Below, one piece after another: positions 2,894-29,477 of a stretch of DNA of 36,073 nt. The DNA comes from Nitrospirota bacterium. Its GTDB lineage: Bacteria; Nitrospirota; Nitrospiria; Nitrospirales; UBA8639. Position 1 is the stretch's first letter; every line of letters begins with the position of its first letter. Below the pieces are notes generated by a model, which was not told where the DNA came from, ran no database searches, and was given only the letters and a program-made list of their open reading frames with translations. A program made the position numbers and the translations under genes. Where the stretch lies: positions 1 through 36,073 of the forward strand of contig JAQBUF010000033.1 in the NCBI GenBank assembly GCA_027623995.1. Reading direction: 5' to 3'.

Positions 2894-3051
2894 TGTAGCT
2901 GCGGCATCTCATGCCGCCTCTTCTTTTGTTTTTCTAGGAGGTGGGAAGATCGGAAGAGGGCACGACCTGCCTGCGCGCTTGCGCGTTGAAGTGCTTCGGC
3001 GCGTAAACGCGAAGCCGCTTCGGCGGAGGCAGGTGAGATCGTGCAGCGACA
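2894..3051. repeat. Composite REP-like palindromic repeat
   Basis: The left unit (2894-2923) runs TGTAGCTGC - stem GGCAT, loop CTC, stem ATGCC - GCCTCTTC. The right unit is its inverted partner (GGAAGAGG ... GCAGCGACA, ending at 3051), with hairpin GCACGAT-GAG-ATCGTGC, but it is interrupted by a 68-base insertion. The same bipartite element recurs intact at 29096-29182. The outer bases are conserved between copies while stem bases change in compensating pairs. This is the pattern of a REP/BIME family. It begins 13 bases upstream of the phr ATG. Confidence 0.8.
2966..3033. repeat. Small palindromic element nested in the REP hairpin
   Basis: A 68-base insert bounded by inverted ends CCTGCCT (2966-2972) and AGGCAGG (3027-3033). 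It is filled with GC-rich mini-hairpins such as CGCG-TAAA-CGCG and GAAG-CCG-CTTC. Removing it restores a perfect 7-base-pair REP stem, GCACGAT-GAG-ATCGTGC, so it inserted between the A and T of that stem without visible target duplication. Confidence 0.7.
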
Positions 3052-28814: not shown

Positions 28815-29477
28815 ATGTCAGCCACCAGAATTGCCTGCTCTGATCTGGATTCCTTGAACTGGACATCCCTTCACCACTCGCTCCTCACAAGGGGATATGC
28901 GCATGTGCCTGGTCTCGTCAAACCTTCAGCCTGTCGAGCCCTTAGCAATCTATACGATCAGGATCGCTATTTTCGATCGCGGATTGATATCGCACTAGGG
29001 TTTTGGTTAGGGTGCCTATTCCTATTTTGCTGATCCTTTACCGGATCAATCGCAATTTTGGTGGAGGCGATGCCTCGTGTGGGCTCCCTCTCTTGTGTAG
29101 CTGCACGATCTCATCGTGCCTCTTCCCGCGCATCATAGGGCACTGACGTCTGGAAGAGGCAGCATGAGATGCTGCAGCTACAGGAAAGACTTGACCACGC
29201 GATGCGGTCGAAAGGGGGAGGAGGGGTGCCATGGGTTGGGGAACCCATCACGGGAACCAAACAAGGGGTTCGCCTGCCTCCATCAACATTGCGACTGATC
29301 CCCTTTACCAACGGTGGTCGCTCATCTTCGGACTCACTTATATACCCACCTTGTTCCGATTGCGAATCACATGATGGAAACGATGAATCGACTACAACGG
29401 TATCCTGCCACACATGTGGCGTTTAGAAAAGAATGTCAACAACAGGGGTAGACGCAGCGCACACCTTCACTGATGTG
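28815..29477 (+). pseudogene. Decayed 2OG-Fe(II) oxygenase gene (Oxygenase-NA type)
   Basis: The first segment, with a good ribosome-binding site (AAGGGAGC), encodes LHHSLLTRGYAHVPGLVKPS and CRALSNLYDQDRYFRSRIDI, typical of the N-terminus of this family. It then runs into unrelated repeat DNA (about 29000-29300). The family sequence resumes with YTHLVPIANHMMETMNRLQR and YPATHVAFRKECQQQG, then a TAG where Gln is expected (TQRTPSLM follows), and stops. The catalytic HxD and C-terminal half are absent. The gene has been disrupted by the repeat element at 29096-29182 and by point mutation. Confidence 0.75.
29096..29182. repeat. Intact REP-like inverted pair (BIME-like)
   Basis: The outer ends TGTAGCTGCA and TGCAGCTACA are exactly inverted, with two hairpins facing each other: GCACGAT-CTC-ATCGTGC on the left and GCAGCAT-GAG-ATGCTGC on the right. 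The two 31-base arms differ only at paired stem positions (CG versus GC swaps), showing selection for the hairpins. It is the same family as 2894-3051 and lies inside the decayed oxygenase gene. Confidence 0.85.

Follow-up and report, generated by a model that had tools for sequence, protein, structure and literature searches.

The hairpins in this stretch of DNA are very probably REPs arranged as REPINs: short non-coding elements that are moved now, or were formerly moved, by a RAYT, which is a REP-associated tyrosine transposase of the Y1/HUH type. This places a REP/REPIN/RAYT system in the order Nitrospirales, whose members include nitrite oxidisers. The window (the whole stretch of 36,073 nt that was analysed) is contig C51 of the draft genome of the host, a Nitrospirota bacterium. 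The draft comprises 3.13 Mb in 110 contigs and is 99.7% complete. Small repeats of three kinds occur in the window, and they are nested within or inserted into each other (Table 1).

Table 1. Repeat elements in the window, with positions on the 36,073-nt stretch
Feature	Position	Strand	Details
REP, left arm of REPIN 1	29097..29125	+	stem ACG/CGT, hairpin 29103-29119; exact match to GTAGCTGCnnnATCTCATnnnGCCTCTTC
REP, right arm of REPIN 1	29153..29181	-	stem AGC/GCT, hairpin 29159-29175; exact match to GTAGCTGCnnnATCTCATnnnGCCTCTTC
REPIN 1	29097..29181	.	convergent REP pair, 85 nt, arm stems differ
REP, left arm of REPIN 2	2895..2923	+	stem GGC/GCC; exact match to GTAGCTGCnnnATCTCATnnnGCCTCTTC
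REP, right arm of REPIN 2	2952..3050	-	head GTCG at 3050, stem ACG, loop interrupted
Palindromic insert CCTGCCT...AGGCAGG in REP loop	2966..3033	.	68 bp, within right arm of REPIN 2
MITE holding REPIN 1	29043..29301	.	259 bp, inverted ends about 29043-29067 and 29277-29301; from DNA search of own genome
Left target-site duplication CCTTTACC	29035..29042	.	8 bp, perfect
Right target-site duplication CCTTTACC	29302..29309	.	8 bp, perfect

The initial annotation described three hairpins with constant outer bases, a constant CTC loop, and three stem pairs that differ while pairing is kept. The hairpins are real: GTAGCTGCnnnATCTCATnnnGCCTCTTC matches exactly at all three, and a search permitting up to 3 mismatches had no matches in 100 shuffles of the window. 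(A looser half-pattern does not discriminate, with 9 matches versus a shuffle mean of 4.06; 9 was reached in 4 of 100 shuffles.) Each stem triplet does face its own reverse complement across the loop. The two hairpins near 29 kb are the arms of one inverted pair. The hairpin near 2.9 kb also has a partner, on the minus strand, which is masked by the 68 bp inside its loop. Once this insert is subtracted, the heads of REPIN 2 are 87 bp apart, which is the spacing of the other REPINs. The CTC loop is constant in the window's copies but not across the family: the 156 listed sites have CTC (109), CTT (36), CTA (10), or CTG (1).

Those sites come from a genome-wide search, as the initial annotation had proposed, and they form a dispersed family. 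Two patterns that leave the stem open had 63 and 106 matches in the host genome (100 of the 106 were listed), and reversed-pattern controls had none. The union of both patterns gives at least 156 REP sites, and up to 6 sites may be absent from this union. The patterns specify the head and the loop but not the stem triplets, so the constancy of the head and the loop is partly a selection effect. Among the 156 listed copies, the head is GTAG in 143, GTCG in 10, and something else in 3 (the pattern has GTAG, with mismatches permitted). The main stem types among these copies are AGC with its complementary partner (61 copies), ACG (47), GGC (14), GCC (12), and ACA (9). The position of the REPs relative to genes was another check that had been proposed: 6 of 97 REP centres lie within ORFs of at least 150 amino acids, versus 669 of 1,735 random positions from the same loci. 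With their GTAG foot and short hairpin, their dispersed and mostly extragenic copies, and their compensated palindrome, these are GTAG-type REP elements.

The stems of the family remain paired even as their letters change. Counting Watson-Crick pairs only, 140 of the 156 listed copies are without a mismatch, 11 have one, and 4 have two; one further copy has a 4-nt loop and is out of register. Taken one by one, the seven stem pairs are Watson-Crick in 149 to 155 of these copies. The in-register mismatches, as read on the GTAG strand, are 12 A.C, 4 G.T, and 3 others. Uncompensated stem changes, which the initial annotation had thought would speak against its claim, therefore do occur among the 16 copies that are not fully Watson-Crick. 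We read these as the decay of single copies, and the overall pairing pattern is not overturned.

To quantify covariation, we aligned 50 of the 51 distinct 23-mers from the host (one was omitted). Across these 50, 95.7% of stem cells are paired, and the covariation score is 0.401, versus 0.135 when shuffled; none of 500 shuffles reached either value. Two-sided changes are found in 56 cells (0 of 500 shuffles were as high), and sliding the partner destroys the covariation signal. The number of pairs with two-sided changes and the number of further pair types do not stand out clearly from the shuffles (74 and 127 of 500 reached them). Because none of these shuffles takes account of relatedness, the counts exceed the number of independent events. 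Positions T13, C14, T15, and A17 are invariant in the 50 rows, while position 16 is variable; the omitted row, which is out of register, would break A17. The 140 fully paired copies and a covariation score above all 500 shuffles support the original claim that pairing is kept rather than sequence.

The REPs of the host are also arranged in pairs. Among its 156 listed sites we found 43 convergent neighbours within 130 bp, and 40 of the 43 are spaced by 83–88 bp. Two inverted REPs at a fixed short distance constitute a REPIN or BIME. At the loci that we examined, there are 34 distinct convergent pairs from the host and 27 from relatives; 19 of the relatives' 27 pairs are 53–70 bp apart. There are also tandem arrays of REPs, with a period of 133–141 bp, on host contigs C21 and C59.

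In every pair examined, a REPIN's two arms differ from each other, and we consider this to be our main addition to the open-access literature that was searched. Identical arms were found in 0 of the 61 distinct pairs from the host and relatives (a set that includes one relatives' pair from a Phycisphaerae-labelled contig, L167, and possibly duplicate genomes, the pairs being distinct by sequence), in 0 of the 43 convergent host neighbours among the 156 listed sites, and in 0 of 61 distinct REPIN sequences from 14 genomes. The two sets of 61 are different but overlapping selections; the 14-genome set used the 66 of 73 sites that were listed, of which 61 were distinct. In the 14-genome set there are 15 stem combinations, all heterodimeric, and the three free pairs are all complementary in 103 of the 122 arms. 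If the arms of this set are shuffled within genomes, then an average of 16 pairs become identical, and none of 5,000 shuffles gave fewer than 5. If the set is collapsed to 29 genome-by-combination classes, then 3.1 identical pairs are expected, and 0 was reached in 151 of 5,000 shuffles. By this strict count, the support for a rule of different arms is only moderate. Equal stems do occur among non-convergent neighbours: in 1 of 10 in the host (listed sites) and in at least 1 of 11 in the relatives (L155, among those listed). Assembly collapse is an unlikely cause of the unequal arms because the assemblies of four of the genomes (G001, G011, G012, and G017) consist of one or two contigs each.

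A link to a transposase comes from relatives of the host. In a genome from the same genus (G002), a gene for a 149-amino-acid protein (P0001) has a REPIN upstream of it and a REP plus a REPIN downstream, all of the host-type family. P0001 is assigned to Y1_Tnp and matches TnpA-REP from E. coli (4er8; E = 5.7e-11). It has the same residues as 4er8 at W94, Q95, E100, H101, and R104 (alignment numbering), and section 12 of PMC6006769 discusses these positions as GTAG-recognition residues. In a genome from another genus (G017), a gene that is 70% identical to P0001 is flanked by related REPs with other stems (this comparison had no shuffled control). Among the genomes searched, a close P0001-type gene (70% or more) was found in two only. 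To judge from this arrangement of genes and repeats, a RAYT like that of G002 may act on the host-type REP.

REPs next to a RAYT were thus seen in G002, and in related form in G017, and not in the host. Four Y1_Tnp genes are present in the host, and one of them scores above the REP_Tyr_transpos cut-off. We scanned the flanks of RAYT and Y1_Tnp genes up to about 1.5 kb (less at contig ends), and found the host-type REP at 0 of 8 loci for the host's four genes (each was fetched twice) and at none of 27 other RAYT loci. We found no homologue of P0001 in the host draft or in G001 at E = 1e-5. We also considered whether the cognate RAYT is among the host's Y1_Tnp genes by scanning four of these loci for GTAG or GTGG hairpins; there were scattered matches and no family, so we rejected these candidates. 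In two genomes we found no match to REP_Tyr_transpos at E = 0.001, yet there are 7 REPIN sites in G001 (same genus, 2 contigs) and 12 in G014. These are possibly orphan REPIN populations, and it seems that REPINs can persist where no RAYT is detected. Nine host contigs (C6, C11, C25, C37, C45, C47, C79, C82, and C97) have a REP within about 200 bp of their start. These are probably places where the repeats interrupted the assembly, so a RAYT could hide in an assembly gap. The mobility of the REPs in the host today is unproven. Separately, RAYT genes in other genomes of the taxonomic family (L210–L214) have GTAG hairpins of their own nearby, some of them within the stop-free matched frame (no shuffled control); REPs inside RAYT genes are already known for tnpAREP subclass 2.4 (PMC6006769, section 12).

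How would a transposase keep the stems paired while their letters change? Elsewhere, elements of this type are cleaved by a transposase that recognises single-stranded DNA in its folded form. In single-stranded form, each arm of a REPIN would fold as GTAG-C-n followed by a hairpin of 7 bp whose tip is T-CTN-A. What the RAYT would read is the foot (GTAG), the tip, and the pairedness of the stem, and hardly the stem's letters, so the stem could drift through compensated steps. In published experiments on one REP, swapping the whole stem had a moderate effect and a mismatch in the stem seriously lowered cleavage, while the loop was read as T-T-N-A with N free (PMC8266576, section 22). The tip of the host REP, T-C-T-N-A with N variable, is a close parallel. 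A transposase's need for a paired stem would be the best-supported reason for the covariation, and we infer that selection rather than mutation maintains the pairing.

Covariation by itself is not proof of selection, because the correction of hairpins by template switching could also yield it. In a quasi-palindrome, template switching rewrites one side of the hairpin with the other side as the template. It would give two-sided changes directly, in one event, and half-changed stems (ACA..CGT and GCC..TGT) are indeed rare among the listed host copies, although they exist. On the other hand, it leaves the constant GTAG foot and T-CTN-A tip unexplained (their constancy is partly due to how matches were selected). 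Also, template switching between neighbouring arms should make the arms equal, and none of the 61 pairs are, though homogenised arms might vanish quickly. We consider this explanation to be unlikely; it is compatible with moving REPs.

The initial annotation left open whether these are REPs or structured RNA. The GTAG heads, the inverted pairs, the extragenic positions, and the flanking of a RAYT gene in a relative all bear out the first part, and the second part is not supported. If the hairpins acted in transcripts at the ends of genes, as a structured RNA or as a transcription terminator, then one would expect them mostly outside long ORFs, as they are, and such hairpins can form in RNA; in addition, PMC12306157 reports many REP-containing small RNAs from E. 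coli, under a loose definition of REPs. However, the window has no match to Rfam at the gathering threshold, and the arms are found in both orientations. Gene context also argues against such a role. REPIN 1 has a YdbH-like gene on one side and a pentapeptide-repeat gene on the other. For REPIN 2, the neighbours are two genes of one strand, for a VKOR-family protein and for a photolyase, provided that the photolyase starts at an internal ATG near 2881; the longest ORF for the photolyase (with a TTG start) would run through REPIN 2. G-U accounts for 4 of 350 stem cells, but this is a weak argument because the 12 A.C mismatches on the GTAG strand would count as 12 G.U on the opposite strand. Overall, we consider a function in RNA to be very improbable.

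To return to REPs that are moved as DNA, the unequal arms might affect how a REPIN folds. Unequal stems would weaken pairing from arm to arm, and two separate hairpins (a clover, with the GTAG and CTAC ends paired) could then compete with one long hairpin. In predictions with DNA parameters, the fold with separate arms is more stable than the long arm-to-arm hairpin in 44 of the 61 natural pairs (22 of 34 from the host and 22 of 27 from the relatives; 23 and 22 for the other strand). If either arm is copied onto its partner, the separate-arm fold is predicted to be preferred in 0 of 61, and the median difference in fold energy shifts by about 15–17 kcal/mol. REPIN 1 itself is an exception, with a prediction of -25.5 for the long hairpin versus -22.1 for two hairpins, and 17 of the 61 pairs in all behave likewise.

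Tentatively, the arms of a REPIN could be under opposite pressures: each hairpin would need to be self-complementary, yet the two would need to be mutually non-complementary, which would give the transposase a clover fold. We see this as one possibility and not as the likeliest outcome. If true, it would account for a preference for heterodimers that earlier authors left unexplained. In PMC3733652, that preference is described as being without an obvious explanation, and protection against clearance by SbcCD is suggested. The legend of Figure S11 of PMC3116915 sets the clover fold against the long hairpin and suggests the clover as the form that is likely to be recognised. Our data on unequal arms fit recognition of the clover and protection from SbcCD alike. 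Because the stems vary and the arms of a REPIN were never found to be equal, these genomes are a natural data set, and the question of heterodimers is testable with substrates that have equal or unequal arms.

REPIN 1 lies inside a MITE, so this copy was probably placed by a different transposase. A DNA search of the host genome with 28900–29400 as the query found further copies of the 259-bp type with the ends GGATCAATCGCAATTTTGGTGGAGG. We examined 9 full copies of 258–375 bp. All 9 hold a two-arm REPIN (REP heads in both orientations), and 7 of the 9 have a perfect duplication of 8–9 bp. (Duplications were sought with the ends shifted by up to 3 bases, and for L307, L308, and L311, where two elements were possible, we used the longer one; the duplications of L306 and L308 are imperfect, and L310, a partial copy, is outside the count.) The 25-bp inverted ends, the target duplication, the small size, and the presence of several copies identify it as a MITE. 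This raises the possibility that the window's copies were carried along by the 259-bp MITE and that the REP family was spread by transposition of the MITE instead of by a RAYT. But among the 50 matches listed to 28900–29400 (from a search in which 40 of 128 candidates were scored), 40 do not span the MITE; these lie within about 145–322 of the query, around the REPIN, with two only partial and with some from the same site on both strands. Also, relatives carry REPINs, and among all loci examined, including theirs, an end of the MITE was seen outside the host only in L167. Spread by the MITE is thus improbable in our view, though less so than a function in RNA. L167 is a Phycisphaerae-labelled MAG contig that contains the MITE with a REPIN, and this is either a transfer or mis-binning.

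The third kind of repeat is a palindrome in the loop of the REP, of about 34 bp in many REPs and 68 bp in the window. In these REPs it sits at the same point of the loop (CTNA, insert, T). The junction of REP and insert was found at 25 host sites within 3 mismatches (1 for the control), and in relatives there are 5 matches, in three of 57 genomes. Among 20 host stretches around matches to the insert, it is inside a REP in 16 (L263–L277 and L281) and outside REPs in 4 (L278–L280 and L282). The palindrome occurs in both orientations, which for a quasi-palindrome could also reflect inversion. The copy of the MITE on contig C65 is filled with the palindrome where the window's copy is empty. We saw no target duplication in the host copies of the palindrome that we read. 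We also considered whether the palindrome is itself the REP of one of the host's Y1_Tnp genes, but there were no matches to its core at the 8 loci. REPs reportedly serve as targets for IS elements, according to the title of one published study.

Across the order, the full REPIN pattern was found at 73 sites in 14 of 235 genomes, from 4 of 37 genera. The narrow REP pattern was found in 10 of 59 related genomes, including the host. Of 80 listed loci with the motif, 64 are on contigs named Nitrospira, Nitrospirales, Nitrospirota, or Nitrospirae. On contigs with these names, the free triplets are complementary in 75 of 82 copies, versus 6 of 17 in other taxa (this count covers loci L087–L166, and the 11 stretches L167–L177 are outside it). 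The same REP motif was also seen on MAG contigs labelled as Omnitrophica, Omnitrophota, or Elusimicrobia (L094, L097, L104, L119, and L156).

How do these elements compare to known systems? The REPINs of Pseudomonas fluorescens SBW25 likewise consist of two inverted REPs around a spacer and are linked to a RAYT (Bertels and Rainey 2011, PMC3116915). In the description given there, the GI doublets of SBW25 are symmetrical, whereas here the arm stems differ in every pair examined. The GTAG-tagged REPs of PMC3733652 resemble ours in having a GTAG foot and sub-families with alternative complementary residues in the stem, and GTAG-24 from P. aeruginosa also forms dimers of elements with different stems. 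The word Nitrospira does not occur in the main text of that paper, while our 15 heterodimeric stem combinations are from Nitrospirales.

In Stenotrophomonas, as in G002, the RAYT gene is flanked by its own REPs, with GT(A/G)G (Nunvar 2010, PMC2817692). That paper reports that modified Stenotrophomonas REPs retain their palindromes, which it reads as suggesting selection for complementary mutations. Those REPs are from another phylum and have another sequence, and at that time qualifying RAYT homologues were, by its account, only in gammaproteobacteria. The Y/Z BIMEs of E. coli also combine two types of REP in inverted orientation, with a homologous transposase, 4er8 (PMC8266576, PMC6006769). 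As described in those sources, E. coli's REPs are long and bulged, unlike the short and perfect stems of the host, which are like group 3 of PMC8266576. In Nitrospira moscoviensis, 3,788 predicted REP-like palindromes have already been counted with RepRanger (PMC12306157), but the definition is very loose (palindromes of at least 10 nt), and neither RAYT nor TnpAREP occurs in the main text. Compensated REP stems are thus already known in print, and what we describe is a new example of a familiar type of element, from an unusual host.
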